A stretch of 27,567 nt of DNA from a virus, in the IMG/VR virus record IMGVR_UViG_3300001472_000018, positions 1-27,567 of that record; one strand, written 5' to 3'. This document shows, piece after piece, positions 1-17,490 of the stretch (its first letter is position 1; each line of letters starts with the position of its first letter). Position numbers and translations under genes: made by a program. The notes under the pieces were generated by a model. The model did not search any database and was not told the origin of the DNA. It saw only the letters and a list, made by a program, of their open reading frames with translations.

Positions 1-108
1 ATGAAAAATGTAGACATTGTACAGTCTGTAGGTGCTATGGAAGAGTTTGTAGATAGCGGAATGGCTCTTTCAGATTACTTGCAAACTCCTGAAGGACGAG
101 TCATATAA
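1..108 (+). CDS. Short 35-residue frame, possibly the 5' part of a frame-broken gene or the end of an upstream one
   Basis: This frame is open from the first base of the window to a TAA at 106-108. It encodes 35 residues rich in acidic and hydrophobic positions, with coding-like composition. The ATG at base 1 may be a true start or an internal methionine, because nothing upstream is visible. No family is recognised. The next gene's frame (frame 3) is open from base 93, and its start-less stretch translates plausibly (NEISQQLTGVSYDRL) directly after this stop. If one AT unit of the ATAT at 103-106 were absent, the two frames would join into one protein of about 333 residues. So this could be the N-terminus of the 135-1004 protein, separated by a real or artefactual frameshift. 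Confidence 0.4.
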   Translation: MKNVDIVQSVGAMEEFVDSGMALSDYLQTPEGRVI

Positions 109-134
109 ATGAAATTTCGCAGCAACTTACAGGG

Positions 135-1004
135 GTGTCTTATGACCGCCTTCCTGCAGCTCAAAATCAAGCAGGAGAGTACGTTGTTGGAGAAGAGGGC
201 GTAGCAGTCATGAATCGAATGAATGACCTTCTTAAAGATGCAGGAGTTCGGTATGTTAAGACTGCCACAGCTAAAACTGCAGCTGACGATCCTCGATTTA
301 AAAACTTAAAAAATAAAGGAATTGTCAGTAGCGGTATTGCTAACGATACACTTACAGATGGCACTGCTGCTCCAGATAGCACTATAGGTGTCTTTGACGA
401 TCGGGTAAATAATACATTATTAGACGATCAGCTTAATGCCTTCGTCGCATATGACCGCACGCTTAATCTGTTCCCCGCTGCAAGTGGGGGTAAAGAGAAC
501 TTTGAGCGCGGGGAGAACATCCAGTCAAATCAGATTTTAGGATCACGATTGACAAGTGGCATTGGTCCTAAGGGTTATCCGCTTGTGCAAGTAGAATATA
601 GTAATCGAGTTGCGGGCAAGGAAGGGGAGCAAGGTATTGGGTATTACGAGCTGAATAATCCAGATGATTTAGGGCTTCTCCAACAAAGTATGGAGGGAAC
701 ATTGTTACAGCTTCGTAGTGGGGCTACAACTCCTGCAACCCGTTTCAGCATGACTCCAGCTATTGCTAATATATTTGCTCCTAAATTAAATTCGTGGGCA
801 GGGGGAGACGGAAAAGAATCGCTTACTGTGCAAAGTCCTCGAGGTACAGCATTAGAAATTAAAAAAGTATCGAATGGGTTTGCGTTATATGACAGCGAGG
901 GGTCTCCTTATATGAATAATGGGAGTCATTATATTTTAGATAATGAGAATGGGGTTAAGGATTTGCGTAACGCAATTGGAGATTTATTTATTAATAATTA
1001 TTAA
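135..1004 (+). CDS. Hypothetical late-region protein (289 aa), probably virion-associated
   Basis: The frame gives 289 residues from a GTG at 135. The first ATG in frame is at 210, which would give about 264 residues. Neither start has a convincing ribosome binding site, and the coding-like frame continues upstream of the GTG to base 93, so the true N-terminus is uncertain. I do not recognise the family. No signal peptide, membrane segment or catalytic motif is visible; the sequence is Gly/Asn/Asp-rich and looks like a soluble globular protein. It ends 11 bases before the giant RNA polymerase gene and is co-oriented with it. In crAss-like phages the gene before the polymerase block is usually a virion component, so an internal or structural role is an inference from position only. 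Confidence 0.65.
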   Translation: MSYDRLPAAQNQAGEYVVGEEGVAVMNRMNDLLKDAGVRYVKTATAKTAADDPRFKNLKNKGIVSSGIANDTLTDGTAAPDSTIGVFDDRVNNTLLDDQLNAFVAYDRTLNLFPAASGGKENFERGENIQSNQILGSRLTSGIGPKGYPLVQVEYSNRVAGKEGEQGIGYYELNNPDDLGLLQQSMEGTLLQLRSGATTPATRFSMTPAIANIFAPKLNSWAGGDGKESLTVQSPRGTALEIKKVSNGFALYDSEGSPYMNNGSHYILDNENGVKDLRNAIGDLFINNY

Positions 1005-1015
1005 TACTACATATT

Positions 1016-4000
1016 ATGGCGGAGGAAAATCAAGAGCCGGTCAACCTGGGCGATCTAGGTACGGCATCATCCTCAGACATTCGCAAAGCTTTAGAAGGAC
1101 AGCCTAGTCCTGTAGAAGCGAAGGATGCTGTTGACTCGGAAACACCAACTGAAACCCCTGATGCACCACCTGCATCTCCGGGTCAGGACATTACAGGGTT
1201 TCTTACAAACAGCAGTAACAATATTGTCCAGAAGGAGAACGGCAGCTTTAAGTTTATAAATCCTTACGATAATAACTTAGATGTTGACTTAGATCAGTTT
1301 GAAACTCAGCGACGTCGAGTATCGGAAGGTAGCGCGTTGTCAGGCATTTTAAACGGGGTAGAAGGGCTTGAAGAAAGCTTTACTTACACTAGCTTAGAAG
1401 ACACTGCAAAACGCAGTCAGGAGGCTCAAGGCGTCATCAATAAGATGAAGAATGGGATGACTCAGCTTGTAGCAGATACAGGTATAAATGTTGCTCAAGG
1501 TTTTGGCGCATTGCTTTACGGAGTTCCTAGTGCTATAGCGAATGGCGACATCACAAAACTGTATGATAATTCTTTAGCTAATAACTTAGATAAAGGCACA
1601 GAGTTTTTAGACGAGTTCTATAAGATAAAACGAGGGGGTGACCAGAGTAAGGGTCAGAAGGTAGCTAACTTTTTATTTGATGACTTAGCGGGCGGTGCAA
1701 GTTTTGTAATGGGTGCTATTGCTACAGAAATGGCATTTAGTGCTCTTACTGCTGCAACTTTTGGAGGAGCTGCTCCTGCGCAAGCTGCAGTTACTGCAGG
1801 TCTTGTGGCTCGAGGTACGCGGTTAGCTCAAAAAACTTTACAAGGAGGGAAGGCTTTAATATCAGGTAGCCTAGTAGACGATGCTTTACGGGCTAGTAGA
1901 TCTTTAGGAGCTGCAGCTACTAGAGAAGGTGCGGCTTCTGCTTTGCAAGCTGCGGCTCAAACTGCGCGTACTCCGATGGCGCTTCAAGCAGCAGCACGTG
2001 TAGGACGTCAGCTTATTACAGGCGCTTCAATGGAGTCTGGTATGGAAGCAAGACACATGCTCAATGCTTCAGTTGAGAACCAAAAACAACAGTATGAAGA
2101 ACTAAACGGTAAAGGTTCTTTTTCTGAGGAGATGGCAGGAGACTTTCGAGAGGAAATTAGCGGGTATGCAGACGGTGTTTTCGGGGCTAATATGGCTTTG
2201 GTAGGAGCGTCTAACATGTTGATGTTTCCAAAACTGTTTGGGGTAGGGTTACGCAAAGGAATGTCTACTTCAAAGTTTATTGATACAAGTAAACTTTCTC
2301 AGAAAGCACGGGCGCGATTGGCTAAAAATCTAGGAGTAGTAGAAGGCAAGCTTCCGCGTCTTGTAGATGCTGCAAGAGGGAACACTCTAGGGCGTATAGC
2401 GGGTCGCACTGGGACTGTAGGACGTGTAACTGCTGCCAATACTAAGAATGCTTTGTATGAAGGTTTTATCGAGGAAGGTGGGCAAGGAGCTATCAGTCGT
2501 TCGACAGAGGATTACATATCGAAACGCTATGACCCAAAAGGCGTAAAGGATACTGTACGGTTTGCAGACAGCTTTTTAGAGGGACTTAAAGGCAGCTACA
2601 CGACCAAAGACGGCTTTAAGGAAATTGGCATTGGTATGCTTCTAGCATTTACAGGTGTCCCTATGTATGCCCGTAATCAAAGTACTACTCCGTCTTCTAA
2701 TAGTGAAACGGCTGGAAAGCCTGAGAAGAAGTGGAAGTGGCAAATGATGGGAGGGTATGCAGATCAACGGAAAGCACTCATAGCGCGGGATAAAAAAATG
2801 GACGCTATTATGAACCTGTCTGAGAAGCACGGGGATGTAGGCGGCATACTGCGGGCAGAGATAGCAAATATGAATAGACAAAATGTTTTGCAAAAAGAGC
2901 AAGACGCGTCTATTCAAGAGGGCCGATTCAAAGAAGCCAAAGATGCGGAAGCTGAAATGATTTTTTCTCATGCCGCAACTAAAGTCGTTACTGGTCGGTA
3001 TGAGCAATCTATTGCTGAAGCTCAGCAGATTATGGACGAGATGTCAGACGAGGAGTTGCGGGAACAGCTAGGCCCTTCTGCAAAAAACATGACAGAAGAA
3101 GACTTGCGTGCCCACCGCAATAAAGCCATGGAAACTTACCGGTCTAGAATGGATCGGGCTAGGCAGGCGTATGATAGGGCAGGTACAGTGTACAGAGGAG
3201 AAGATGCAGACATCCATACGGGAGTCGCTCATATGCTTTATATGACTAAGGAGAAGGATGCACGTGAGAAGAGTATTGCGGGAGAGATTGCAGATGCAAT
3301 TGAAAATATGAATGAAGGTGATGTTCTTGATCTTGTCCGTATGCAGGCAGATTTAAACATGACTGAGAGCACGACTAATTCATTTTTAGACCTTATTAAT
3401 AAATATCAAAATATTGATAAACAGCTTAATACAAAGCTGGAACGTAAGATTATAAAAAACATTGACCCGGAAAAAGCTGACCAACGTCAAAAAGATATTG
3501 CTAGCGCTCAACAAGCTCGGGAAATACTGGCGGAACAAATGGAAACTATGCTGGAGACTATGGCTACAGCACAGAATGTCGAACGAGGTAAGTACGACTT
3601 TGACCTTAGCACATTCGATCGTTTAGGAGACTTACATAGAGCGATTAGACGTCAACAAGGGGTCGAGTTTCAAGAGGCGGATCTAAAGGCTTTGTTTGAG
3701 GACATGTATGCCGTAGCACAGGACCGTCTAAATTTAATTGGTAACTATAACGACTTTATTAAACCTGGAGGTGTTGAGCGTTTTGAATCTAAGATGATTG
3801 GTTCTATAGAGCGTTTAGCAAAGATGTCTCCTGAGCAGCGTCAAGAAGCTCGTCAACAAGCGGCAGCCGAAGAAGATGCTGATGCTGATTCTGCGGTAGC
3901 AGAAGAGATAGTAAAGGCGGAAGAGGCAGCTACAAAACAGGCTTCTTCACCCCAAAATCCAGGTTCTAATCCCCCTCAAGCTCAAGATGGAGGAGGAGAG

Positions 4001-7000
4001 TTTAGCGTAAATCAAGCTCCACAACAGGTTGTTACTGAGCCGGGCATTGGGTTTCCTGAGCCAGCAGGGTATACTGGGGATGTGCCGACTGCTCCCGCTA
4101 ATGTGGAACTTCGCGAGACACTGCCAGGAGAAAACCCTACACGTAATACGGTAGTCTCTGACGTGACAACAGTACAATTTCAATTTACAAATGCGAATAA
4201 TAGTACAGAGGAAAATAAAGGTAGTACGATTAATGACAAGTACTTAGCCGGACTAAAGAAGGTTATTGCAGGGCTACCTATAGGCACTGTAATAGAAGCT
4301 AGAGAAGGAGAATCTAATGGGAGAATTGCACTACGAGCAGATAAAACTCTTTTAGCAGACATTAAAATTCAAGAGTTTTCTCAAGAGGTGCAAGCGGAGT
4401 TAAGGCTGGGAAAGACAGTCGCACTAGTAACAACATCAGAAGTTAGTCGAGGCTTTGTGGGAGGCGAAACACTTTGGGAAAACAATAATGGAGTAAGGGT
4501 TAGCGCGAATCAGAAAAACGACTTTCCAACAGAGGACTTAGTTAGAGAGGTATTACCGAATGGTGTAGAAGATATCAAAGGCATGAATTTAGTGCCTTCT
4601 AATTCTAACAATTTACTGCCTATAGCAGGGGTAGAATCTATGGGGATTCCTGGTGAAATGGTTACGGATCCAAAGTTTGCAGGTAATTTATTGGTTTCTA
4701 CTGTAGATGCTTTAACTAAAGAAGAAGCGTATCACTTTGTGGAACTCTCGCCAATGACATACGAAAGTTCTACCCAATTGGTAGACTTAGTAGATGCATT
4801 TAATCAATTTGTTCTTAGCCCAAACTCTATGAGTCCTAGTCAAAACGATCTTCTTAGAAAGTTCGCAGAGGCTTCACAAATAGATTTGCAACAACCCGCA
4901 GACGAAGTTTCTAAGGCTGTTGCGTTAAAACTTCGACGGATTATACAGGGCGCAGAGTTCTTAAGTGAGCAAACAAAGAAACTAAAAAATAACCCTAGGA
5001 TTAAAAGGCCGTTACTTGCTGTGGAGCCTTTGGGTTCAGGGAGGGACGGAATTACTTTGGTGGCTTTACTGCAAGGAGATACGTATTATTCCCATGACAA
5101 AGAGGGGAATCGACAAGGCCCCGGTGCGGAAGCTATTGCAAGTTTTATAACCAAGCGTCCTGCAAACGTTACTCAAGAAGGCACTACAGTGTACCCAGAT
5201 GGTAAAGGGAATTTTGATGTTTTTTCTACTTTGGAAATGGTCCAGAAGCAAGGAAAATTTGTGTATCGTGCGCCTTTTGTAGTAGACGGCAAAATTTATA
5301 ACCGGCAATTTGCAAAGGTAGAGCTAAGCATGAACCCTTTGGTTCCTGTTCCTACTAAATTTAAAAGATTAGAAGAGACACCCGAACCTGCTGGCAATAC
5401 ATCTTCTGAGGTTGTAATTGAAAAAAATACGCAGTTTGATCCAGGCAACTATGATCCGAATAAGTTTGGTCTTGACGCAGACTACTTGCCATCTAGTTCC
5501 CAAGAGAGTACCGACCCAATGGAACGCGCAGGGGCTTTGTATGAAGTTCCAGGACTGACTTCTCGTCAGTTGCGTGACGGGATTAACTTCAGTACAGGAA
5601 TGATGGCACGAGCGTTTTCTACTCACATTCGAACGAAAGACCGCAGTGTACCTATTTCAAGTGATTACCTGCGACGTTATGTGAAAGCCAACTTAGAAAA
5701 TAATCTTGCATACTATAAGTCTCTTAAACAAGAGGGCTTTACTGTGAAAGTAGTTGAAGCACATGAAGCCTATCTCAGCTCTGAAAACTTCAATCCTTTA
5801 ATGGATTTGGCTATGGTTGAGCTGCTGCAACAAGCAAAAGACACAGTCGTAGGTCAGGGCGATTTGAATAAGGCGCTCGAAAACATCCGGGATAGAGCGG
5901 CAAATTCTGAAATGTTAGATGATGCAGAGCAAGCTGAACGGGATGCAAATCCTATGGCTGCGTTTGATGAAAACTTTGCTTTTGGAGTAAACCCTAAAAG
6001 CACTTTGCGGTTAGAGTCTAAGCTTTTGCTTATGGGCTTAGTCGATGAGCGTGGTACAACCGGGAAGTCTTTTGGTCTAGCTGGACGTAAATTTTTGAAC
6101 AACACAGATCTTTTAGATAAGCTATCTGCTGTGCTTGCAGGTGTTGCGCCTAGCTATATTAAAGTTAAAGAACGCTTAAAAAAATACACTAAGACTTATC
6201 CTCAGTTTCAGTCTGTTCTAGATATAATGACGGATACTTATGCAATTAATAGCATACCTCCGGGTTTAAAAGCAACCTCTACTGCTAAAGAGTACGCTGA
6301 AATTCAAAACCGTGCTTTGTCTGTCCAAGACATGATTCGCAACCAGTTTGTAGTCTTTGCAAACAAAGAGGTTACAACTTATGACTCGGTTAAAATTGTA
6401 GACGTTACTGCTACACAAGCAAGGGACATCCAAATTTGGAACAGCAACTCCCGTAATATGCGGGAGCATGCAGGAAACGATATTCGTTCAGCTTTGATTG
6501 AACAAGAGTTCTTTGATCTTGATGGTGCGATTAATAAGCCGAAGTTTAAAAACCTTTACGATCAAATCGTAGGAATTTCTGAGTTGCCAGAATCAGACCA
6601 AGCTGCTAAATTTTCTTTAATTCTTGAAGATGAATTAAATATTTCAGTAACGCCTGATGCTTTAACAAGTAAAAACTTGACGGACAATGAAAAGGGTGAT
6701 AGAATATTTCTTGGGGTAGAAGATGCATTAAGGAAAGGAGAAGCGGGAACTGCTGGGATTGTGGGGCGTTTTAAAACAGCCTTAAAAGATTTAAGCACGT
6801 CAGATTTAACTTTAGAAGAAGCATTAAGCTCTGGGTCACAAGCGGGTCGAGCGGTAAAAGACTTTTTTGTAGGGTTAGCGGATTACCGTGAAAACTTTAT
6901 TCAAAAAAGTAGTAAAGACGGGGACAATAAAACTCGGTATCAATACAGTGCGCCTAAACTGGTGCATCAGATGCTAAGAGAAATCAAGACAGCAGCTGTA

Positions 7001-10000
7001 GAAAATCCAGCTTCGGTTCTTTTAGGAAAGCGTTTTGCACAACTTAGCGCAGAAAACCGTCGCTTGATTGAGTTGACTTACTTAAGTGGCATTAAAAAGG
7101 GAAATAAAGGAAAGGAACGAAACTTTCACGGCATGCAAGTGGGTGACAATGTTTTAGCCCAACTTGCTTTTTACGGCAATCGAAACACATATAAACAGCG
7201 GGATGCAAACGGGGAGGCTATAATAATATCAAAATTTTTGATGCCTACCCTAGCTGATAAACAAACAATGCCGATTTTGCAAGCCCCTGCTTTAAGTGCT
7301 AAGCAGGCTGGTGTTGTTTTAAACGAAGAGGTATCTGAAAAGTCTTGGAAGACTCTAACGTTTAAAGACGTAGTGCCTAACGTAGCTGGTGCTTATGAAA
7401 CAATTCTTAAAGACAGCGTTGATCTTGAGATAGATCGTATTATGCGTATCCAAGCGGGAAATACAGAGGGCATGACTGCAGCTCAACGAGTAGCAGTAGG
7501 ATTTGTAATGGTTCCTTCCTTAAACGGAGTAGCTGAAACCTTTATGGAAGGTAAAATCAAACGCGCGGACTTCCGAGCAGAAATTCATAGCAAAGCAGTA
7601 AGGGTATTTGAAGAAGCGATGAACGAAGATATGCAGCACATGCTTCGTGAGACAGAGGGTACTATCTGGAATCCTACAGATAAAGAGGGGGTTGAAACTA
7701 TAGGTGAGCTATTTCACTTTAACGGGTCTAAAAAGAAAAGTCCTGTTAAGGTTCATGTTGCTCCAACAGCTAATCTTCAAAAAGGAGGCAGGCACATAGT
7801 AGCATTTGTAGCGTTTTTAGCTAAGTATGCTATGGATAGCATGAACGTTCGGACAAGTGTTATTATGGACACTATGGGAGATCCTGGGGCATTTGTAAAA
7901 ACAGATAAAGAGACTGGTAAAATTAAACCTGCAAAAACTGCTACTAATTTAGGAAAGCGGTTTGCATCTCTTATTGCCCCTGGCGCGGCAATACCCTATG
8001 TCACATACAATAATCGAAAAGGTATTCCTGTAGATAGCCAAAAGGTAAACTTTCTGGTTATCCCTGCTCGCGTAGTATCTAAAGCCGGGCATTATGAATA
8101 CTTGAAAAAGATAGGACAGTCTGCAGATGAATTGTCTATGCAGGAAAATTACGATAGCGCAGATGCTGCAGAGTATACAACTGTGGAAGAGCATCTGGGT
8201 ATACTCTATGCGAAAGGTGAAATAACTCGTCTGGAAATGGACGATGTTTTAAGTAAAATAGCAAACAACATAAAGCTAACCAATGAGCTAGATTGGTTTC
8301 AACCCATGAAGCCGGTAACTACTGCGCGTGTGGGGGATCATATGCTTTATGTTAAGAGTGCAGCCTTCCCGTTAGTGCCTCAACTTACTCAAGGGACAGA
8401 GCTAGACAAGCTACGGGTATTTATGGAGACTAATAATGTCCAACGTGCTGCTTACGACAGTGCTGTAAAGTTGGGCAACGAGTGGTCGGATGTTAATGAC
8501 ACGTTAGCTACTGAAGCCCAAAAAATGATTCCGGTTCACGTAGGAGACACGGTTGAAATTAATGTAGACGAGTTAAAAAAGCGTGTTATAACTGGCGTCG
8601 ATCGTAAGTACATGCGGATACAACAGGAAGTCCCGAGCAGTACTACAAATGAGAAGGTTCACGGATCGCAGGTAGCTAAATTGCTTCTAGTTGATATAAT
8701 CAGTTCTAAATTTATTTTAAATGGAGAATCGGTAAAAGGGGCTAAGATGTATCAGGCTTACTTGAAGGCTCGTAGGGAAGAGCAAAACGCTCGTTTAGAA
8801 GTATTTGCTGCTCGATACGGGATGGAGTACGATAGCGACACGGGTATATCGCACACTCCAGAGTCAAGGAAGAAGTTTGCCGAGCGTATAACTGAAGAAG
8901 GTGTTGACCGTTCCTATGATGCTAACGAATTAGCGCATCTTTACTTTGACCAGGAAACAGTACGTTTCTTGACACCTTTAGAGGCAGGCCCAAGTTCAGA
9001 ACGCATTGAAAACCTCGTCAAAAGTATAATTTTTAAGGAAGTATACGAGCCGAGTATAGAGGGCTTTAGTGGACCTATACGACCGGAGGTAGGCATTAAG
9101 TCTATTGACGAGGATTTAGTTAATAGCGGAGACATTATGTGGGTTATGAAAGGAGGCGTGCGTCTCTTTGATGGCAATAAACTGAAGGTTGCTCAGGAAG
9201 GGCAGATGGATCAGATTATCATGCCTTGGAAATACAAAGCCAGTCTTGAAAAATATATGGATGATGATGGCAATATCAATGCTGATGACTTACCTCCAGA
9301 GTTGCTCAAGGCTTTTGCCTATCGTATTCCAAATCAACGAAAGAGTTCTTCTGCTGCATTCGAAATTGTAGGGTTCTTGCCCAAGAGTTACGGAGATACC
9401 TTAATTGTTAATGAAGAGCTGGTAGGACGTATTGGACAAGACTACGACATCGATAAGATGTTTGGGTTCTTGTATTCAATTGAACAAACAGAGGATGGTT
9501 CTATAGAGGTTATTAGGAGCGAAGAGAAAGCTAGTGCGCAACGACGGGTTGCGGCTGCACGCAACGAACAAGTTGATATCTATCTCGCCTCTATGGACCC
9601 TCAGGACAATGCGGTTGAAAAGGCTATACACGCTCCTGTAACAGACGGCTATGCGGTAGCGTTAGCAGATCAGATGGATGGACTACTGCATGATGATGCA
9701 GTTTTGGGGCTACCTATGAGCCAGTCCTATAACTCTCGTAAAGCAGATGCAGCTCGAAGTGCGAAAAGTTCTATTGGAGTATTTGCAAAACAGCATGTTC
9801 TTCACGCGCAACTTCAACAGTCTCTTGAAACAAGAGGTTACGGAGGTATTAGTTTTCGAGAGGGAGAGTTTATTACAATTCTTTCAAGTCCAAATGCGAA
9901 GAAACCTACAGAGAATATAGCTTTAGGGAATATAGGAATTCATGACGCAGACTTTAAACTTGAGTATAAAAATCCTCCAGCAGCAGGCAACCGTAGCGAT

Positions 10001-13000
10001 CAGTTTAGCCGATTGTTAAATCATTCTGTAGATAACGAAAACAACGGGTTGTTAAGCAAGCTAGGAATTACACAAGATACTTGGCCTGTATGGACTGGCT
10101 TAACGCATATGGGGTACAACCAAGAGACTATAGCTTTTCTTGTAGCTATGCCTGCAGTTCAACAGTACTTAGCTTTAAAGAAAAAGACGGGACGTTTAGC
10201 TAGTACAGGAAGTACTATAAAAATTAGTACGCTGATAGCACAGGAAATAACAAAGCTGCAGGGAGATTCTAAAAATCCTATAGATATTAAGACTTTACCA
10301 GAGTTAGATAAGGAGTCTATGCTGGATATTATTAAAGGCGCGTCTGAGAAAAGTGAGAGAGAAATTTCTCAAATGAATCTGAGAGCTTTACTAGCTGTTG
10401 AGAAGCTAGAGGTTATGGGTAGAGATCTGAGTCGTGTACAAAACTTTATGGGCTTAGACACTAACCGACCAAAAACATTAATTGGATTGCAGGTGGCTTT
10501 GTCTAAAATGAAAAACCCTCAAAGTGACAAAGAAGGGACTACATTCTCTGTACTAGACGCTGTATCAGCCGCAGACATGACAGTTTCAGGGCAGATTTCG
10601 AATCTAGTTAAAAGGACTGCAACAGGCTTGTTGAATATTCAAAATAACCTGCTGCCGCAAAATATTATTTCGTCTTTAGTAACTGATTTTGAAAAAGCAG
10701 GTCTAACTCAATCTGTAGAAGAATCTATTGGTGACTTGATAAAAGGTGTCAAGAGTTACAATTACTCTTTGTTTACAGCTAAACTAGCGGGTAGGAGTGC
10801 AGAAGAAGTAAGAGCAGAAGCTCACAATCTTGAGACGGGCGGTATTGCAACTCTTTTAATTGAGGCACGTCAGAATCCTGAAATAGCTAATAATTCTTTT
10901 ATTAAGCAGTTGATTGCTGTAAAGGCACCAGGTTCATACCCACACCTAGAGTTTCCAGGAGACCGAGAGCTAGAGGGAAGTTCTACAGAACTACATCGAG
11001 GCTTTTTAAGTTTACTACGTAGTGCTGATCCTGAAGTAAAGAAGTTTGGGGAGTACTTGGTTGTATATGCTTTGGCTACTAGTGGAGGTAAACTCAAAGC
11101 AAGAGGCTATTTAAAGTATGTTCCGGCAGAATACTTACAATCTAAAGGGCTAGGAGATATTGTCAATATTCCTAATATTGCTGAAAGCGTGTCTACTGAT
11201 AAAGTCATAACTGAGGTAATTCGTCATAATGATACTTTAGCTCCTTACTACAACAGTAAGGCAGACGCGGGCATATTTACCTCTAACGAAGTATTACACC
11301 TAGACGTTGAAGCAGCATCCTTTAGAGGGCACGTTCGTGTTAAGAATGCTTTATATGCTCCTTCTGATACTATGGGGCGCATGGTTAGACATAAAGGAAA
11401 AGACGTTGAAGCTATTCCTTTGATACTGGTGAGTAAATTAGGCGATTATTTGACAGATGAGTACACGTCAGATTTTCAGCCAGCTAATAAGAAACCTATA
11501 GTTAAGAGTCTAAAAGGTAATACTACAGCTCCAGCACCTGATGCGCCTCCCCAAGGAACTATGGATCAAAGCTATGAACCAACCCGTAACGTAGCGGAAG
11601 AGTACGACCCAAATTTTAATCCGGTTGTTCCCATGAATATGGGTTTGTCGGGTAAGGTTAATGATGAGATAGTCCGGTCTGAGAATCCAAACAAAATGCC
11701 AATGGGCATTAAGGAGTTCTTAAAAGTTTCTGAGTTACGTAATAACCCTTTTATACAAGAGTTAGCGCAGACTCAAGAATCGTTACAACCTGAAGATAGA
11801 GTTACGGTAGTTGTTAGTGAGGACTTGCCAGGAAAGGGTATGTATAATGCTGGTACTAATACTGTTACTATTCGTCAGGATATGGTAAACGATATTCGTA
11901 CTGTAACTCATGAGTTGGTCCACGCATTTACAAGCCTATCTATTAAGGTAGCGCAAGGCAAGGCAAAAATATCTGACCCTAACAAAAAGGCTAAGATGGT
12001 AGCTGCAGTGAACGAGCTGCAAAAACTTCTGAATATTGCACGTACTCCAGAGTCCTTGCAAAAGATGGGATTAACTTTTGCGGGTCAACAACAATCTGCA
12101 AGAGGCTACAGGGCTTTTAAGAATCAGAGAGATGGAAAGGCCTTGACTGCAGAAGAGCAGCTTGATTTGGATTTCTTCAAAGAAAACTTAGATAAGTACT
12201 ATGCTTTTGTAAGTCTAGAAGAGTTCGTAGCGGAGTCTTTTTCTAATAAAAAGTTTGCTGAGAGGATTGCAAAGCTTTCTTTGAATAGAAATGAAACCTT
12301 TATCGATAGGTTTATGCAGGCTGTAAATAAAGCGTTAATCGCTTTAGGCATAAACTTTGGTAAGGACACTAAGTTCTTAAAGGAGATTTACACGCTGAGT
12401 ATGGGAATCGTGGACATCCAAACAGGAGGTCAGATTGGGTTGATTCCCGGGCAAGAGATAGCGTCTAGTGATTTGATTGACGCAGTTACGGCTGTGGATG
12501 TAGGGGGACAAAACCTACAAGGACTAGATCAGATGAAGGACTACAAGGAGAAGCGTATCCGACAGTTTGAGGAACTTAAGAGTCGGTATAACACTAATAG
12601 GGAGTTTGTACGGAGGGTGGAAGCTAGGCTGGTACAAGAGCGTAAGGATTTGAAGGTGCTTACTGATGATAGTGTAGAGATAACGCCTGACTACTTCCTG
12701 GCTGTTGGTCAAAGAGAACTTGATTTTGCTCGTAGGACTATCGAGAACGTTGACTCTACCGACCCGCAGATTACCATGGCTCTGAGTGCTCTAGAGAATA
12801 TTTATAGTGTGGTCGAGTTCTACGATAAGAGTAGAGAGATTTTGAAAGATCCTGCGCTGTTAGATGTTGCTACTGCGCTACGTAGGGAAGCATCGGAATT
12901 GAAAGATAATTATTTGGATAAGGCTCGGGACATAACACGTCGTGGTGCTAGACAAGAATTAGAGACTCTAGGCGTTAACGTAGATGCTAATAGCTTTGAG

Positions 13001-15748
13001 ACTTTACAGCAGGTTGGGTGGATGAAGTCTTTCTTTATGGATGCGTCTCGTCAGGGCACGGTAGAACTTTCTTTCTTAGATAAGATTGTAAGAGATGCTA
13101 GCCAATTGCAGCGGGTACAGTTTAATGCTCGTGCTAAGCGGTATATGGAAAATAGTAAGAAGTTTAAAAAGACCTCTTACTTTAACGAACACGGCTGGAA
13201 TGGCATGGTTGAACTAGATGCGCAAGGGAATCCTACAGCTAATATGCTTACCATGCTTAGCGGTTCTTATGAATCGGAGTACAACCTTAAGCGTGCTACG
13301 TTAAACAATTCAAAAGCTTTCTATGATTGGAAGCGAAGTGTTACGGGACGTATTGATATCTCTGCTATGTTTGATATCTCTGGTACAGAGGTAAAGCGTA
13401 AAAACAATCCTAAGTACGTAGAGTATCTGAATAAAACGTATGGCGCAGCTGGTGCAGCAGAATTTTTGCAGCAGCAAGAAACGATGGCGCAGGAGTATGT
13501 AGACGCGCGTACCAGTGAATTTGATACGCTGGAGCTTACCCTAGGGGAAAACGCAACAGATGCAAAAGCTTTATGGGAGGCTAAGAATAATCCTATCCAA
13601 GCTTACAAACGTGCTGAGGGTAAAGGGGGTCGTTTTATTAAAGGCGCAACAAGTAGATTCTTGTTAGACATTCCTTTACGCACTGTAAAGGGTAAGGCTA
13701 CGAATTACTATGATGCTAGGTTTGATCAGCTTCAGTCTGAGCCTGATGCATTGGCTTTCTATAATGACTACCGCCAGCAGATAAAAGAGATGATGGCAAT
13801 GTTGCCAGCACATAAGATGACACGTGAAGCGCACCTTGTACGTAATGGACTTTTTATTCCAGCAATTGCGAAATCATTGACGAACGATTTATTTAAAGCA
13901 GAAGGGCTGGCAACCAGGATGAAGCAGCTGCCTGATAATATTCGTAGCGCGTTTACAATTGACCCTGAGTACAATATTAATAAACTTATTGACCCAGTAA
14001 CTGGACGTCCTCGTCAAGAGCTTCCTACTTATTTCTTGGGACAGGTAGATCCTGAAACTCAGGACTACGATATGGATAGGACCTTCCTTGCTTTTACTAT
14101 GATGGCTACCACTTACGATAGTAAGAATGCTATTGAAGATAAAGTTCGGATGACGAAAAGTGTTATGAGCAATGCGCGTGTAGGACGCGTAAAGAAAGGA
14201 TTAGCAGAAAGTGTTTTAAATAAATTAGGGGCAGAGTCTCCTGTAGGGTATGCTGATGAGGCAGCTAGAGCAACTACTATGAGAGTAGTAAATACTGTAG
14301 TAGATACTTTCTACGGTTACCAAAGTAATCAGGATATTACTTTTGAAGCAAATGAAAATTTGTTCACTAAAAAGCAAAAGGAAAAACTAGACGAGTTGAA
14401 AGACCAAAAGCTTGCTGCAAAAACGCAAGAAGAAAAAGACTTAATTCAAAGTCAAATAGAAGAAGCTACTCCTCAAGTAAGTGTGTATAAAGGAATTCGA
14501 GGGGTACAACAGTTTATCCAAGCCAAAGGCATGGCATGGAACGTTCCAGCAGCTATTGTGAATATGGCGTTTGGAGCCATAAGTGTCTTCAAGCACGCTA
14601 GTGGTCAGCGTGACTTTACTGAAGCAGACACCCGTAAAGCTACAGGTATTATGCTAAGTAGTTCATTGAATAATATGACCTTAAATACAGGCTTAACGCA
14701 GAATAAGGAAGCGTTGAAGACTCAAAATGCTATGATAAGCTTTGATTCACTGAAGGACTTTACAGAGATGCGGCACGACCAACGCAAGTTTAAAACTCAA
14801 TCTGGTGAAACTAGCATAAACCAGGCAGAATCTCAGGGCTTTAACAAGCTACGTATGTACGAAATTCAACGTAGCTCAGAGTATTTTGTGTATGGGCAGG
14901 TCATGATTTCTGTATTGCTACATGAAAAAGTCGAGGGTAAGTCTTTGTGGGAGCACATGGGTGGAGATGGGATTATTGATATTGATGGTTATCGTCCGGG
15001 CGAAGAGAAACACTTGGCTTTGATGAATAAGATGGACCAGATCAATAAACGCATACACGGTAACTACGACCCTTCGAGTCCTATCGCAGTGAAGAAGACA
15101 ATGATTGGGCCTCTTCTTATGCAGTTCCGTAGTTGGTTGCCTGAATCCGTAGCAGCTAGATTCGAAAAAGAAAAGTTTGATCCGTATTTGCAACGAGATG
15201 TAAAGGGCACGTATCAAACGATGTTCTTTAGTAGTGCTATTCGTAAGCACCTAACTGCAATGCTTCCAATGTTGGTGCCGAGCTGGGCACGTACGAAAGG
15301 TATGAATGAGATGAGTGCAGAGATCTCAGCAGTGGACCAAGAAAACATTAGAAAGTTCGCGGCTAGCTTGCGTCAGTACTTACAAATAATGATTCTTATT
15401 TCTGTCTTACGTGCCTTGAAAGATGATGAAGACGATAAAGAAGCGTTAATGATTCTGAATGCAAGTCTGAATGTAGTGGACAGAGCTGAAAATGACTTAG
15501 CTTTGTTCGGTCGTCCTGGGGCATTCTTAGATATGACTCAAGGTGATTTCTTAGCTGCAATTGGCGCAGCTAGTGAAGTTGAGAAACTTGGAGAAGCTGT
15601 AGTTAAAACAGCGCAAGGAGACGGAATAATTGAAACCGGTGTTTACGCTGGTAAGTCACGAATGTGGCATCACTTCCAGAAATTAGTACCACACTTAGGA
15701 GCAGTACAGCGGATAGCTAACAACTTAGATCGCGAACTAGGCTCTTGA
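1016..15748 (+). CDS. Giant 4,910-residue virion RNA polymerase and zincin protein, crAss-like type
   Basis: One uninterrupted frame encodes a protein of roughly 540 kDa. Residues 2809-2813 read DYDID followed by KM, the metal-binding DxDxD motif of two-barrel RNA polymerases. It is preceded by YRIP (2769-2772) and a GFLP turn, the arrangement seen in crAss-like virion polymerases and distantly in bacterial beta-prime. Residues 3632-3636 read HELVH with acidic residues at 3735, 3736 and 3740 (EEFVAES), a gluzincin-type metalloprotease signature. The N-terminal region (about 220-415) carries Ala/Gly-rich hydrophobic helices that could be membrane-active. Coiled-coil-like stretches lie near 777-855, 3844-3882 and 4452-4488. 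Proline-rich linkers near 961-1028, 1452-1502 and 3498-3548 divide it into blocks. The C-terminus has an RSWLPE element near 4703. Virion packaging, injection and early transcription are inferred from the family; cleavage at the linkers is possible but not shown. Confidence 0.88.
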   Translation: MAEENQEPVNLGDLGTASSSDIRKALEGQPSPVEAKDAVDSETPTETPDAPPASPGQDITGFLTNSSNNIVQKENGSFKFINPYDNNLDVDLDQFETQRRRVSEGSALSGILNGVEGLEESFTYTSLEDTAKRSQEAQGVINKMKNGMTQLVADTGINVAQGFGALLYGVPSAIANGDITKLYDNSLANNLDKGTEFLDEFYKIKRGGDQSKGQKVANFLFDDLAGGASFVMGAIATEMAFSALTAATFGGAAPAQAAVTAGLVARGTRLAQKTLQGGKALISGSLVDDALRASRSLGAAATREGAASALQAAAQTARTPMALQAAARVGRQLITGASMESGMEARHMLNASVENQKQQYEELNGKGSFSEEMAGDFREEISGYADGVFGANMALVGASNMLMFPKLFGVGLRKGMSTSKFIDTSKLSQKARARLAKNLGVVEGKLPRLVDAARGNTLGRIAGRTGTVGRVTAANTKNALYEGFIEEGGQGAISRSTEDYISKRYDPKGVKDTVRFADSFLEGLKGSYTTKDGFKEIGIGMLLAFTGVPMYARNQSTTPSSNSETAGKPEKKWKWQMMGGYADQRKALIARDKKMDAIMNLSEKHGDVGGILRAEIANMNRQNVLQKEQDASIQEGRFKEAKDAEAEMIFSHAATKVVTGRYEQSIAEAQQIMDEMSDEELREQLGPSAKNMTEEDLRAHRNKAMETYRSRMDRARQAYDRAGTVYRGEDADIHTGVAHMLYMTKEKDAREKSIAGEIADAIENMNEGDVLDLVRMQADLNMTESTTNSFLDLINKYQNIDKQLNTKLERKIIKNIDPEKADQRQKDIASAQQAREILAEQMETMLETMATAQNVERGKYDFDLSTFDRLGDLHRAIRRQQGVEFQEADLKALFEDMYAVAQDRLNLIGNYNDFIKPGGVERFESKMIGSIERLAKMSPEQRQEARQQAAAEEDADADSAVAEEIVKAEEAATKQASSPQNPGSNPPQAQDGGGEFSVNQAPQQVVTEPGIGFPEPAGYTGDVPTAPANVELRETLPGENPTRNTVVSDVTTVQFQFTNANNSTEENKGSTINDKYLAGLKKVIAGLPIGTVIEAREGESNGRIALRADKTLLADIKIQEFSQEVQAELRLGKTVALVTTSEVSRGFVGGETLWENNNGVRVSANQKNDFPTEDLVREVLPNGVEDIKGMNLVPSNSNNLLPIAGVESMGIPGEMVTDPKFAGNLLVSTVDALTKEEAYHFVELSPMTYESSTQLVDLVDAFNQFVLSPNSMSPSQNDLLRKFAEASQIDLQQPADEVSKAVALKLRRIIQGAEFLSEQTKKLKNNPRIKRPLLAVEPLGSGRDGITLVALLQGDTYYSHDKEGNRQGPGAEAIASFITKRPANVTQEGTTVYPDGKGNFDVFSTLEMVQKQGKFVYRAPFVVDGKIYNRQFAKVELSMNPLVPVPTKFKRLEETPEPAGNTSSEVVIEKNTQFDPGNYDPNKFGLDADYLPSSSQESTDPMERAGALYEVPGLTSRQLRDGINFSTGMMARAFSTHIRTKDRSVPISSDYLRRYVKANLENNLAYYKSLKQEGFTVKVVEAHEAYLSSENFNPLMDLAMVELLQQAKDTVVGQGDLNKALENIRDRAANSEMLDDAEQAERDANPMAAFDENFAFGVNPKSTLRLESKLLLMGLVDERGTTGKSFGLAGRKFLNNTDLLDKLSAVLAGVAPSYIKVKERLKKYTKTYPQFQSVLDIMTDTYAINSIPPGLKATSTAKEYAEIQNRALSVQDMIRNQFVVFANKEVTTYDSVKIVDVTATQARDIQIWNSNSRNMREHAGNDIRSALIEQEFFDLDGAINKPKFKNLYDQIVGISELPESDQAAKFSLILEDELNISVTPDALTSKNLTDNEKGDRIFLGVEDALRKGEAGTAGIVGRFKTALKDLSTSDLTLEEALSSGSQAGRAVKDFFVGLADYRENFIQKSSKDGDNKTRYQYSAPKLVHQMLREIKTAAVENPASVLLGKRFAQLSAENRRLIELTYLSGIKKGNKGKERNFHGMQVGDNVLAQLAFYGNRNTYKQRDANGEAIIISKFLMPTLADKQTMPILQAPALSAKQAGVVLNEEVSEKSWKTLTFKDVVPNVAGAYETILKDSVDLEIDRIMRIQAGNTEGMTAAQRVAVGFVMVPSLNGVAETFMEGKIKRADFRAEIHSKAVRVFEEAMNEDMQHMLRETEGTIWNPTDKEGVETIGELFHFNGSKKKSPVKVHVAPTANLQKGGRHIVAFVAFLAKYAMDSMNVRTSVIMDTMGDPGAFVKTDKETGKIKPAKTATNLGKRFASLIAPGAAIPYVTYNNRKGIPVDSQKVNFLVIPARVVSKAGHYEYLKKIGQSADELSMQENYDSADAAEYTTVEEHLGILYAKGEITRLEMDDVLSKIANNIKLTNELDWFQPMKPVTTARVGDHMLYVKSAAFPLVPQLTQGTELDKLRVFMETNNVQRAAYDSAVKLGNEWSDVNDTLATEAQKMIPVHVGDTVEINVDELKKRVITGVDRKYMRIQQEVPSSTTNEKVHGSQVAKLLLVDIISSKFILNGESVKGAKMYQAYLKARREEQNARLEVFAARYGMEYDSDTGISHTPESRKKFAERITEEGVDRSYDANELAHLYFDQETVRFLTPLEAGPSSERIENLVKSIIFKEVYEPSIEGFSGPIRPEVGIKSIDEDLVNSGDIMWVMKGGVRLFDGNKLKVAQEGQMDQIIMPWKYKASLEKYMDDDGNINADDLPPELLKAFAYRIPNQRKSSSAAFEIVGFLPKSYGDTLIVNEELVGRIGQDYDIDKMFGFLYSIEQTEDGSIEVIRSEEKASAQRRVAAARNEQVDIYLASMDPQDNAVEKAIHAPVTDGYAVALADQMDGLLHDDAVLGLPMSQSYNSRKADAARSAKSSIGVFAKQHVLHAQLQQSLETRGYGGISFREGEFITILSSPNAKKPTENIALGNIGIHDADFKLEYKNPPAAGNRSDQFSRLLNHSVDNENNGLLSKLGITQDTWPVWTGLTHMGYNQETIAFLVAMPAVQQYLALKKKTGRLASTGSTIKISTLIAQEITKLQGDSKNPIDIKTLPELDKESMLDIIKGASEKSEREISQMNLRALLAVEKLEVMGRDLSRVQNFMGLDTNRPKTLIGLQVALSKMKNPQSDKEGTTFSVLDAVSAADMTVSGQISNLVKRTATGLLNIQNNLLPQNIISSLVTDFEKAGLTQSVEESIGDLIKGVKSYNYSLFTAKLAGRSAEEVRAEAHNLETGGIATLLIEARQNPEIANNSFIKQLIAVKAPGSYPHLEFPGDRELEGSSTELHRGFLSLLRSADPEVKKFGEYLVVYALATSGGKLKARGYLKYVPAEYLQSKGLGDIVNIPNIAESVSTDKVITEVIRHNDTLAPYYNSKADAGIFTSNEVLHLDVEAASFRGHVRVKNALYAPSDTMGRMVRHKGKDVEAIPLILVSKLGDYLTDEYTSDFQPANKKPIVKSLKGNTTAPAPDAPPQGTMDQSYEPTRNVAEEYDPNFNPVVPMNMGLSGKVNDEIVRSENPNKMPMGIKEFLKVSELRNNPFIQELAQTQESLQPEDRVTVVVSEDLPGKGMYNAGTNTVTIRQDMVNDIRTVTHELVHAFTSLSIKVAQGKAKISDPNKKAKMVAAVNELQKLLNIARTPESLQKMGLTFAGQQQSARGYRAFKNQRDGKALTAEEQLDLDFFKENLDKYYAFVSLEEFVAESFSNKKFAERIAKLSLNRNETFIDRFMQAVNKALIALGINFGKDTKFLKEIYTLSMGIVDIQTGGQIGLIPGQEIASSDLIDAVTAVDVGGQNLQGLDQMKDYKEKRIRQFEELKSRYNTNREFVRRVEARLVQERKDLKVLTDDSVEITPDYFLAVGQRELDFARRTIENVDSTDPQITMALSALENIYSVVEFYDKSREILKDPALLDVATALRREASELKDNYLDKARDITRRGARQELETLGVNVDANSFETLQQVGWMKSFFMDASRQGTVELSFLDKIVRDASQLQRVQFNARAKRYMENSKKFKKTSYFNEHGWNGMVELDAQGNPTANMLTMLSGSYESEYNLKRATLNNSKAFYDWKRSVTGRIDISAMFDISGTEVKRKNNPKYVEYLNKTYGAAGAAEFLQQQETMAQEYVDARTSEFDTLELTLGENATDAKALWEAKNNPIQAYKRAEGKGGRFIKGATSRFLLDIPLRTVKGKATNYYDARFDQLQSEPDALAFYNDYRQQIKEMMAMLPAHKMTREAHLVRNGLFIPAIAKSLTNDLFKAEGLATRMKQLPDNIRSAFTIDPEYNINKLIDPVTGRPRQELPTYFLGQVDPETQDYDMDRTFLAFTMMATTYDSKNAIEDKVRMTKSVMSNARVGRVKKGLAESVLNKLGAESPVGYADEAARATTMRVVNTVVDTFYGYQSNQDITFEANENLFTKKQKEKLDELKDQKLAAKTQEEKDLIQSQIEEATPQVSVYKGIRGVQQFIQAKGMAWNVPAAIVNMAFGAISVFKHASGQRDFTEADTRKATGIMLSSSLNNMTLNTGLTQNKEALKTQNAMISFDSLKDFTEMRHDQRKFKTQSGETSINQAESQGFNKLRMYEIQRSSEYFVYGQVMISVLLHEKVEGKSLWEHMGGDGIIDIDGYRPGEEKHLALMNKMDQINKRIHGNYDPSSPIAVKKTMIGPLLMQFRSWLPESVAARFEKEKFDPYLQRDVKGTYQTMFFSSAIRKHLTAMLPMLVPSWARTKGMNEMSAEISAVDQENIRKFAASLRQYLQIMILISVLRALKDDEDDKEALMILNASLNVVDRAENDLALFGRPGAFLDMTQGDFLAAIGAASEVEKLGEAVVKTAQGDGIIETGVYAGKSRMWHHFQKLVPHLGAVQRIANNLDRELGS

Positions 15749-15751
15749 CAC

Positions 15752-17020
15752 ATGAAAAATAAAATAATCTTTAAAACGCTTAGCCTACTTTGGTTAGGCG
15801 TTTTTCTTGGCTATAATAATTATAGTCAATCTGTCCCCTTTATAGAAGGAATAAACTTATTATTTCCTGGGTGCACTGATCCTATGGCGCTCAACTACAA
15901 TGAGGAAGCTACTGAAGATGATGGCACCTGCGTCTATTCTATAGGCCCAGATCCAGTCATACTTAATATAACTGTTACAGATGAAAGCTGCCAAGAGTAC
16001 GAGACAGGAGTCCTGTCTTCTTACGTATACGAGGCTACTATAGTAAATATAGGAAACGAAGCAGTTACAAACTTTTGCCTTAGCGACTTCTTAGGTACCA
16101 CGTTTAACTGTTTTAACGGGGTCTCTAATCTTGCTGTTTGGATTCAACCCGGGGATACTATAACTGTGACGGGTAACATCAATAGTATAGGCACATGGGT
16201 AGAAGGACAAGGAAACTATATGACTGTAACGAGTGTTCCTGGGGAGGTTATTACAGGTAATAATAACTTTGTTTTTTATATGCCTGAGGGAGTGGATTGC
16301 GTAGAGCCTGCTGATCCTGAATACTGCGATACTCTACTGGTCTACGTGACTGAAATAGACACGCTTATTGAGTATGTAGAACTTCCGGCTGATACAGTGA
16401 CTGTGCTGCAGCTAGACACGTTGTATATTCCTTGGGAGTATTATTTCTACGATACGGTATACGTAGATGTTTTTGACACTATTTACGTGACAATGCTAGA
16501 TACTGTAATTATTACAGAAATAGATTTACAGTATGTATATGAAACAGATACTATTCTTGTACTACAAGTAGACACAGTTCTTGTGTCTCAAATAGATACT
16601 CTCTTTCAGGAGGTAGTAATCTATGAATATATCTACCAGACGGATACAGTACTCCAAGTAGTATACGATGAGGTTTTAATAGACTGCGGGACCGGTCTAC
16701 CTTGTATAGGAGGTTTCTCAGGCATGACGTGTGAATCTGTATTCATACCAAATGCGTTTTCTCCAAACAACGATGGCATTAATGATACTTTCTATGTAGT
16801 ATCTGAATCTTATGACTGCTGGTTAGAATGGCAGTTAATCGTATACAATAGGTGGGGTACTGCAATTTGGAGCAGCGATGATCCGCAAGCCCAGTGGTAT
16901 GGACAAGCAGAAAATCAAATGCATTACGTTTCAGATGGCGTGTATGTCTGGACTCTGCGGGCAAAGGGAGCCACAGGTAACGCGTTAGATCTATCAGGGT
17001 CAGTTACGGTCTTCCGTTGA
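15752..17020 (+). CDS. Secreted surface protein with T9SS type B (CHU_C) sorting domain
   Basis: The 422-residue protein begins with a clear signal peptide (basic MKNKIIFK, then a hydrophobic core to about residue 20). Residues 40-60 carry the cysteine-bracketed GCTDPMALNYN...DDGTC element common in secreted flavobacterial proteins. A beta-rich domain follows at about 68-185, then an eight-residue DT repeat stalk (193-300). Residues 328-422 match the gliding-motility-associated C-terminal domain: IPNAFSPNNDGINDTF at 332-347, a central YNRWG, a DGVYVW strand and a terminal VTVFR. That domain is the cargo signal of the type IX secretion system, found in Bacteroidota. The gene starts three bases after the giant protein's stop, so it is probably co-transcribed and coupled. 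It is unlikely to be a standard capsid part. Host-surface display, superinfection exclusion or a virion receptor role are all inferences. Confidence 0.85.
   Translation: MKNKIIFKTLSLLWLGVFLGYNNYSQSVPFIEGINLLFPGCTDPMALNYNEEATEDDGTCVYSIGPDPVILNITVTDESCQEYETGVLSSYVYEATIVNIGNEAVTNFCLSDFLGTTFNCFNGVSNLAVWIQPGDTITVTGNINSIGTWVEGQGNYMTVTSVPGEVITGNNNFVFYMPEGVDCVEPADPEYCDTLLVYVTEIDTLIEYVELPADTVTVLQLDTLYIPWEYYFYDTVYVDVFDTIYVTMLDTVIITEIDLQYVYETDTILVLQVDTVLVSQIDTLFQEVVIYEYIYQTDTVLQVVYDEVLIDCGTGLPCIGGFSGMTCESVFIPNAFSPNNDGINDTFYVVSESYDCWLEWQLIVYNRWGTAIWSSDDPQAQWYGQAENQMHYVSDGVYVWTLRAKGATGNALDLSGSVTVFR
16328..16651 (+). repeat. Octapeptide DT(V/I/L) repeat stalk inside the T9SS cargo gene
   Basis: Within the secreted protein, Asp-Thr pairs followed by an aliphatic residue occur at residues 193, 203, 214, 222, 234, 242, 250, 266, 274, 282 and 298. 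Position 258 (DL) and position 290 (degenerate) keep the register. From 234 to 298 the period is exactly eight residues (24 bases). Aliphatic and aromatic residues alternate between the DT pairs, which suggests extended beta-strands forming a stalk between the N-terminal domain and the sorting domain. The DNA copies have diverged, so this is an old protein-level repeat and not a recent tandem duplication. Confidence 0.8.
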
Positions 17021-17287
17021 CGCATTGGTTACACGTCCGCAAATCATGTGCTCTGAGATTAGCACGTGGTCTTCTCCGTCGATAGGAATAATTAGACCTT
17101 TAGATTCAGGATGTACCATAACAGTATCGCCAACTTTAACATTGCGGCAATCAGGTCCGACTGCTAGAACGGGCAATACATAAGAAGGTCTAACAGTAGT
17201 CTGTTCCGTAAGGATAATACCAGACTTAGTCTTCTCGTGCTTTTCGTGAGGCAGAATCACGTAGTTGTGTGTGGGTATAAAATTCAT
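17000..17287 (-). CDS. GroES-like co-chaperonin (phage Cpn10)
   Basis: The 95-residue length matches Cpn10. The N-terminal strand (PTHNYVILPHE) is followed by a mobile-loop region at about 16-32 containing KSGIIL, the equivalent of the GIVL tripeptide region by which GroES contacts GroEL. Then come VLAVGPD (40-46) and VKVGDTVMV (50-58), typical of the GroES barrel, and a C-terminal strand with VLISEHMICG. The protein should cap the host GroEL in the cytoplasm, as T4 gp31 does during capsid protein folding; the client here is unknown. No GroEL is encoded in the window. It is the last gene of the leftward block, 11 bases after the 44-residue gene, and its 3' end overlaps the rightward secreted-protein gene by 21 bases. 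Confidence 0.85.
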   Translation of the reverse strand: MNFIPTHNYVILPHEKHEKTKSGIILTEQTTVRPSYVLPVLAVGPDCRNVKVGDTVMVHPESKGLIIPIDGEDHVLISEHMICGRVTNASTEDRN

Positions 17288-17298
17288 TGCTGATAAAT

Positions 17299-17433
17299 TT
17301 AGCGTCCTTGCCCTCTGTAAGATTTCTTATAGAGCTTGGAGTTATTACTTTTAGATGTCTTTGTTTTAGCGTGTACACCTGGACGCTTTACACTTTGCTT
17401 AGTTGCAAATGTGCTAGTCATATTCTTTGCCAT
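17299..17433 (-). CDS. Small very basic 44-residue protein
   Basis: This short frame runs from ATG at 17433 to TAA at 17299-17301. It starts MAKNMTSTFATKQSVKRPGV and ends KKSYRGQGR. It is rich in Lys, Arg, Ser and Thr, has no acidic residues and contains no hydrophobic segment, so it may be disordered and bind nucleic acid. From memory, similar short proteins with a KRPGVHAKTKTSK-like core and a YRGQGR end recur in Bacteroidota phages, without a known function. It sits between uracil-DNA glycosylase and the GroES-like gene, with 11 bases to the latter. Co-oriented neighbours, a clean ATG and a biased composition support it as real. Confidence 0.75.
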   Translation of the reverse strand: MAKNMTSTFATKQSVKRPGVHAKTKTSKSNNSKLYKKSYRGQGR

Positions 17434-17441
17434 ACCGTAAA

Positions 17442-17490
17442 GGTAGTAACTGAGGCGGGACTCTCACCCGCACTCAGTCTACTGTCTACC
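17442..17490 (-). other. Strong bulged hairpin between the UDG gene and the 44-residue gene
   Basis: An inverted repeat pairs ACTGAG plus GCGGG (17449-17459) with CCCGC plus CTCAGT (17467-17478), with one bulged base at 17472 and a seven-base loop at 17460-17466. Three more pairs (17446-17448 with 17480-17482) extend it past a second bulge, and GGTAG at 17442-17446 could alternatively pair with CTACC at 17486-17490, which overlaps the UDG stop. No U-run follows on either strand, so it is not a textbook intrinsic terminator. It could be an RNA processing or stability element, or control initiation of the small gene that begins at 17433. Confidence 0.6.

Follow-up and report, generated by a model that had tools for sequence, protein, structure and literature searches.

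A single gene of a crAss-like phage joins, in one chain of 4910 residues, a predicted two-barrel RNA polymerase (RNAP) to counterparts of the virion proteins that lie beside the polymerase in other crAss-like phages. Since both flanks appear homologous to neighbours of the polymerase gene, this lineage would have fused the whole three-gene locus. The explanation that fits best, and that we hold to be fairly likely, is a three-gene fusion made as one chain, packaged, ejected and put to work transcribing the early genes. The gene lies in the window, by which we mean the whole stretch of DNA analysed (positions 1 to 27,567 of the 57,246-base record IMGVR_UViG_3300001472_000018); its features are collected in Table 1.

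Table 1 Features of the giant gene in the window (nucleotide positions of the window, residues of the giant protein)
Feature	Residues	Position	Strand	Basis
Giant ORF, encoding all the parts listed below as a single protein		1016..15748	+	ORF, purifying selection
N-block region	1-960	1016..3895	+	Profile homology
Low-conservation stretch, Pro/Gln/Glu-rich at its start	961-1490	3896..5485	+	Conservation, relatives' boundaries
RNA polymerase module	1491-3470	5486..11425	+	PDB sequence match, gene comparison, structure superposition
Modelled polymerase core; superposes on 6vr4_A residues 612-1823	2020-3215	7073..10660	+	AlphaFold2 model
QPMKPV...K with invariant lysines K2432 and K2447		8300..8356	+	58/58 aligned cores
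YRIP element; R2770 and P2772 invariant	2769-2772	9320..9331	+	58-row alignment
DYDID catalytic motif	2809-2813	9440..9454	+	Alignment, PDB match, structure
Second low-conservation linker; RNAP|C boundary in split relatives (e.g. L118)	3471-3575	11426..11740	+	Conservation, relatives
Zincin-like domain	3576-3830	11741..12505	+	Motif, profiles
HELVH	3632-3636	11909-11923	+	Alignment
EEFVAES	3735-3741	12218-12238	+	Alignment
Helical C-block; homologous, by profile, to phi14:2 gp76 and crAss001 gp49	3831-4910	12506..15745	+	Profile homology

The giant ORF is a real gene under purifying selection. It starts with ATG and runs for 4910 codons without an internal stop, as a sequence-only reading of this DNA had described, and the same length recurs in a second IMG/VR contig (L004/L013), identical across a 550-residue query. 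The ORFs of diverged relatives are of similar length (L005, 4928 aa; L006, 4969 aa; L008, 4941 aa; L036, 4992 aa). Between the window and L005, dN/dS was ~0.09–0.10 for the N-terminal, polymerase and C-terminal parts; dS reached saturation there in both stretches of low conservation and in the zincin-like domain, and also in most comparisons with L008. Pfam gave no match above its cut-offs for the whole giant protein.

Searching all PDB sequences with phmmer returned 6vr4_A as the sole significant match (E = 2.8e-16), and in that alignment the YRIP element and the DYDID motif pair with the equivalent elements of 6vr4_A. With tblastn, positions 7400–11500 of the window matched 135 phage records; the best E-values among the matches listed belonged to Flavobacterium phages, followed by crAss-like phages. 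The core alignment (A5; 58 of 69 prepared rows, with 11 divergent rows omitted) contains 18 columns that are invariant within those 58 rows, including K2314, R2315, D2383, K2432, K2447, K2485, Q2552, R2770, P2772, D2809, D2811, D2813 and D3006; a further alignment (A6) used 46 of 78 rows. The lysines of QPMKPV...K would belong to the second (beta-like) barrel.

Structure prediction led to the same relative. The AlphaFold2 model of the core had a mean pLDDT of 88.3 and a pTM of 0.88; Foldseek matched it to 6vr4_A with an E-value of 1.8e-39, the sole match below 0.001, and VIA superposed 1042 residues on this phi14:2 polymerase with a Z of 23.3 and an rmsd of 3.7. The next VIA matches were QDE-1 (Z 14.6), maize RDR2 (14.5), P74 gp62 (10.5) and P23-45 gp96 (9.6), and largest-subunit chains of multisubunit polymerases also matched over model residues ~660–1007, the stretch that contains DYDID. 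Together these matches support the assignment of residues ~1490–3470 to a single-chain two-barrel RNA polymerase of the crAss-like phage type, in which 'two-barrel' refers to superposition of the whole fold on 6vr4, not to strand-by-strand tracing of the barrels. The earlier reading thus fared well here: its DYDID motif and upstream YRIP were found as described and both are conserved, its two-barrel core was recovered by sequence and by predicted fold, and around residues 2770–2850, where it had placed a double-psi beta-barrel, the model superposes on 6vr4. The length it gave for the phi14:2 polymerase, about 2,200 residues, agrees with the 2180 aa of KC821624 and the 2194 of 6vr4. That virion polymerase is reported to transcribe early genes and to be insensitive to rifampicin (PMC10136315).

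The same reading had taken the polymerase to be fused to further blocks on both sides, and the homologies of these blocks bear it out. A four-member profile of the N-block (A3) matched phi17:2 gp39 (3.9e-42), MT837277 (1.6e-33) and a 2208-aa structural protein of csAssE-Sib (5.7e-26) and, more weakly, crAss001 gp47 (7e-7 for the whole sequence, with no single stretch below 1e-3) and bajarodcaudo virus 1 (1.4e-6); further rounds added phi14:2 gp78 and a 2019-aa protein of cr107_1. The conserved part of the block, residues 100–560, is homologous to crAss001 gp47, phi14:2 gp78, p-crAss gp45 and phi17:2 gp39. The four-member C-block profile (A4) matched phi14:2 gp76 (1e-14) and crAss001 gp49 (8.6e-9), and further rounds, for which fused proteins were trimmed at fixed distances from the motif, added the C-half of cr107_1, a 1596-aa protein of Fpv1, the C-half of p-crAss gp44 and phi17:2 gp36. 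At an E-value of 1e-5, no polymerase-core segment was matched by either profile in any round. Profile–profile comparison without iteration gave probabilities of 99.85 for A4 and 88.3 for A3, each against seven separate proteins of its own kind, with crossed controls at or below 0.4. By these profiles the N-block appears homologous to a separate virion protein (crAss001 gp47, phi14:2 gp78), a relation that was weak in the first pass, and the C-block to another (crAss001 gp49, phi14:2 gp76). crAss001 gp47, gp49 and gp50 are reported to have been detected in virions by mass spectrometry (PMC10172136), and record notes give phi14:2 gp76–gp78 as virion proteins by the same method. In relatives with split genes, the boundary between the N protein and the polymerase falls ~1330–1420 residues before DxDID, which is near residue 1400 here, and that between the polymerase and the C protein 730–1070 residues past the motif, in or near the second linker.

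One description of the N-terminus, as membrane-active-looking, was not supported: no 19-residue window has a Kyte–Doolittle mean above 1.44. A membrane-pore reading of the N-block likewise gained no support, its hydropathy being that of a protein without a classical transmembrane helix. A PDB profile search with the N-block gave nothing below an E-value of 0.38. For the C-block, Foldseek against the PDB gave no match under 0.001 and the VIA rows were mostly helical bundles (Z 7–9), so we claim no fold for its helical part; the top VIA row was the PhiM1 ejectosome 8vb2_A (Z 9.3, 139 residues). Two of the four best PDB profile matches of the C-block are designed helical bundles and were discarded as matches of composition.

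The polymerase locus of Cellulophaga phage phi14:2 (vRNAP gp66 of the literature, gp77 in KC821624, PDB 6vr4) shares the two-barrel fold, motif and gene order of the window, and its gp78 and gp76, the latter also with HExxH, are homologous to the fused blocks, but it consists of three genes of 1797, 2180 and 1421 aa rather than one of 4910 aa. The homologous blocks of crAss001, gp47, gp50 and gp49, are described as virion proteins throughout (PMC10172136); their genes are separate, gp47 lies on the opposite strand and gp49 has EExxH instead of HExxH. In p-crAssphage, gp44 (BK010471; annotated as an RNAP catalytic subunit fused to an unknown RNAP subunit) joins polymerase and C-block as in the window, whereas the N-type protein is separate: gp45, which has the N-block (probability 96.9), is annotated as an RNAP-associated protein fused to a zincin protease, so that the zincin annotation falls on gp45. 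The nearest named relatives by TerL and core are those of Flavobacterium phage Fpv1 (a 4401-aa structural protein and the 1596-aa protein), in which the C-block is separate; profile–profile comparison of the 1875-aa N extension of Fpv1 with the N-block gave no detectable relation (probability 0.5).

The flanking blocks occur in an Epsilon phage as well. In phi17:2 (L026), homologues of the N- and C-blocks lie at 15155–21028 and 22915–28659; gp36 passed the cut-off in the last C-profile round only and reached a profile–profile probability of 99.9, and no C-block was found among the csAssE-Sib proteins tested. The polymerase profile found no core in the phi17:2 or csAssE-Sib genomes, and Epsilon phages have been reported to lack a vRNAP (PMC7886860); because a weak HHpred polymerase match is reported for crAssE-Sib (95%, E = 3e-3; PMC11054128), we do not rely on that absence. 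Blocks that occur where no core is found, as in phi17:2, could suggest that the core of the giant protein is catalytically dead and the protein solely an ejection protein, but we give this almost no credence, since the window retains the three Asp of DxDID together with every other residue that is invariant in the 58 rows, and dN/dS of the polymerase part is ~0.09.

Behind the second linker, H3632, E3633, H3636, E3736 and E3740 are invariant in the four full-length family members, so that HExxH is accompanied downstream by a candidate third ligand, E3736 or E3740, as in a zincin. The C alignment has 86 rows, some of them near-duplicates, of which 59 have letters at the HExxH column; HExxH occurs near its column in 24, phi14:2 gp76 included. 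Seven rows, crAss001 gp49 among them, have EExxH instead (for example LPEEFAHFAIE; handles include L023, L063, L071, L072, L101, L102 and L103), the first His being lost. The lack of HExxH in many relatives argues against an essential role in processing. Small archaeal zincins (4jix, 4qhi) matched the C-block model in Foldseek only at E-values of at least 0.4, a SprT-like Pfam match for L017 (2.2e-5) fell just under the Pfam cut-off, and the C-block profile also hit a deposited internal protein of a virion, 9sfn_G, with the match at the HExxH of that protein (E = 2.7e-4).

Such a domain could make the giant protein a true polyprotein, one translation product that is cleaved in both linkers, perhaps through the action of its own zincin-like domain, to give equals of phi14:2 gp78, gp77 and gp76. 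We regard this as rather unlikely, although both linkers lie where split relatives have their gene boundaries, HELVH is intact with a conserved downstream Glu, and phi14:2 and crAss001 have three separate proteins: HExxH is confined to the minority of C-block rows given above and is present also where the genes are already separate (phi14:2), and the N4 vRNAP, with HExxH at the equal place, is described as being handled as one full-length chain (PMC12633501). Of the two, we favour a chain that stays uncut, since most members of the clade retain the full length (4910–4992 aa) and many relatives have lost the zincin site.

Fusion is not unique to the window lineage, and such fusions recur. Among the relatives analysed (the best 80 of 239), 63 of 73 distinct cores could be scored, ten having been left out because they were truncated or their N part was of middling length; neither neighbour was fused in 17, the N side only in 29, the C side only in seven and both in ten, with lengths of up to 5642 aa. 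N fusion was scored by length, as at least 2300 residues ahead of the motif; profiles found N-block homology in six of the ten doubly fused rows, and some length-scored extensions, such as that of Fpv1, are not demonstrably N-block. On a quick maximum-likelihood tree with five long end branches, at least eight state changes are needed for N (63 rows) and nine for C (72 rows), or seven for each without those five rows, and 100 label shuffles averaged 19.3 and 18.3 changes and never gave fewer than 15. With far fewer changes than the shuffles, yet several, fusion states are inherited but repeatedly changing; the counts carry no direction between fusion and splitting. The window clade comprises nine rows (SH-aLRT 100) inside a 24-row group with the Fpv1 clade. 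Within the window clade, L118 (branch support 81) has the C-block in an ORF of its own, the split falling at the second junction.

Two further loci were recorded. L014 (9992–22105) and L017 (9992–24901) are near-identical contigs by polymerase core, and the giant ORF of L014, which ends ~300 bases before the contig end, most likely through a frameshift, was excluded from the counts. In bajarodcaudo virus 1 (L028, record positions 54754–59976, minus strand) the core is split across two genes, at profile positions 11–800 and 802–1218. Giant crAss RNAP genes of up to ~6000 aa have been reported before (PMC10136315), as have several large multidomain proteins of the transcription block and, within Zeta-group clades, protein boundaries that vary (PMC7886860); fused forms are also annotated in the p-crAssphage record. 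Within the literature searched, the three-way fusion in this lineage, the mapping of both flanks to neighbour genes and the fusion census are new.

By gene comparison the phage appears crAss-like, its TerL, MCP and portal being related to those of crAss-like phages. TerL matches Flavobacterium phages (FPSV-S29 and others) at 38% (E = 6e-136) and MCP matches crAss002 and similar phages at 34–35%; portal and TerL match PHROGs, that of the portal being head-and-packaging. A flavobacterial host had been thought probable, and this holds as far as Bacteroidota, with Flavobacterium phages nearest by TerL and the next ORF bearing a domain of type IX secretion, but not at the level of Flavobacteriia. 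The ORF in question, directly behind the giant gene (15752–17020, plus strand, 422 aa), has a C-terminal CHU_C type IX secretion signal domain (Pfam E = 1.5e-16) and encodes a putative phage-encoded T9SS substrate. CHU_C-like C-terminal ends occur also in L009, L017, L036 and L112; the place is taken by an opposite-strand ORF in L116 (3784–4878, minus), L015 (18973–20157, minus), L113 and L114, and the end of the L116 ORF we take, by eye, to be dockerin-like. Further on, window 19166–20230 (minus strand) has a gamma-glutamyl cyclotransferase-like domain (Pfam GGACT, E = 1.3e-22) and a weak GATase_6 match.

Ahead of the giant gene lie two ORFs (1111 and 509 aa; L013 5125–9989), the end of the second being window 1–1004 (plus strand); the first is presumably GH19/lysozyme-like, judged by eye. 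No homology was found between these ORFs and the cargo proteins gp45 and gp46 of crAss001, with which they agree in place alone. An RNA polymerase made and used only inside the infected cell, and never packaged, would accord with a phage known from its sequence and not from virions; we consider this very improbable, since the giant ORF ends the structural block and immediately follows the ORFs that occupy the cargo-protein place, and its homologues in phi14:2 and crAss001 are virion proteins. By analogy with such phages, the polymerase of the giant protein is probably injected into the host.

For the packaged and ejected chain that we favour, a model of ejection can be drawn from what is reported for crAss001 (PMC10172136) and N4 (PMC12633501). 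The giant chain would be packaged in the capsid and would thread the portal and tail domain by domain, as beads on a string, as has been proposed for N4 gp50 (PMC12633501). The N-block may act at the envelope, the polymerase would refold in the cytoplasm and transcribe early genes independently of the host polymerase, and the C-block may aid delivery or restrain the polymerase.

Two other giant polymerase proteins invite comparison. Thermus phage P23-45 gp96 (5002 aa) is described as a two-barrel vRNAP within a giant protein of the virion that also has metallopeptidase and transmembrane parts (PMC10770324), and its fold match to the window core is the VIA Z of 9.6 given above, but its polymerase is N-terminal on a tape measure protein, belongs to another two-barrel lineage and comes from a long-tailed phage. 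The vRNAP of N4 (gp50, Schitoviridae) is described as one ejected chain of a lipid-binding NTD, a 100-residue low-complexity linker, the RNAP, C1, which bears HExxH, and a helical C2 for which no homologues are known, with a CTD that slows transcription in vitro (PMC12633501). This order of N-terminal block, linker, polymerase, HExxH domain and helical C-domain resembles that of the giant protein, but the polymerase core is unrelated: the crAss core profile scored a probability of 0.3 against the N4-family RNAP and had no match in the N4 genome, and the window core has a two-barrel fold, not a T7-type single-subunit polymerase core. Nor is homology detectable between the helical C or N parts and those of N4-like chains (profile–profile probabilities 0.1 and 2.9); VIA gave a Z of 7.4 for the C-block against N4 9pnr, but with an rmsd of 18.

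HExxH follows the polymerase in 16 of 16 aligned N4-like chains. The crAss zincin profile matched N4 C1 with a probability of 92.2 (E = 5.8e-7, 115 columns; reversed control 0.4), and the window-family zincin alone did so with 95.8 over 59 columns. Masking the motif reduced the crAss zincin signal to an E-value of 3e-3, so the N4 match rests largely on the motif region. PhiM1 gp43, a T7-like internal core protein, matched the crAss zincin at the downstream stretch only (probability 62, E = 7e-5) and N4 C1 with a probability of 70; against the window family alone there was no match (1.0). In the open-access literature on vRNAPs, zincins and crAss-like phages that we covered, we found no statement of this shared HExxH position.

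The polymerases of crAss-like and N4-like phages may be two unrelated cores in one common delivery chassis, a proposal that we put forward tentatively. Its parts would be an N-block that acts at the envelope, a disordered linker, the polymerase itself, an ejection-protein zincin that T7-like internal core proteins (PhiM1 gp43, for example) would have too, and a large helical C-domain. The polymerase would be the part that can be swapped, and the flanks would be the older ejection proteins; among crAss-like phages, one to three genes would encode the chassis, through repeated splitting or joining.

These results offer an identity for the flanks of a giant phage polymerase, which would be the other virion proteins of its locus, joined and split at similar places across lineages. 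Because 17 scored cores (from the best 80 of 239 relatives) have neither neighbour fused, each block can be tested for its function separately. With an HExxH domain at the equal place in both kinds of vRNAP, the idea of a common delivery machine for unrelated enzymes becomes testable as well.
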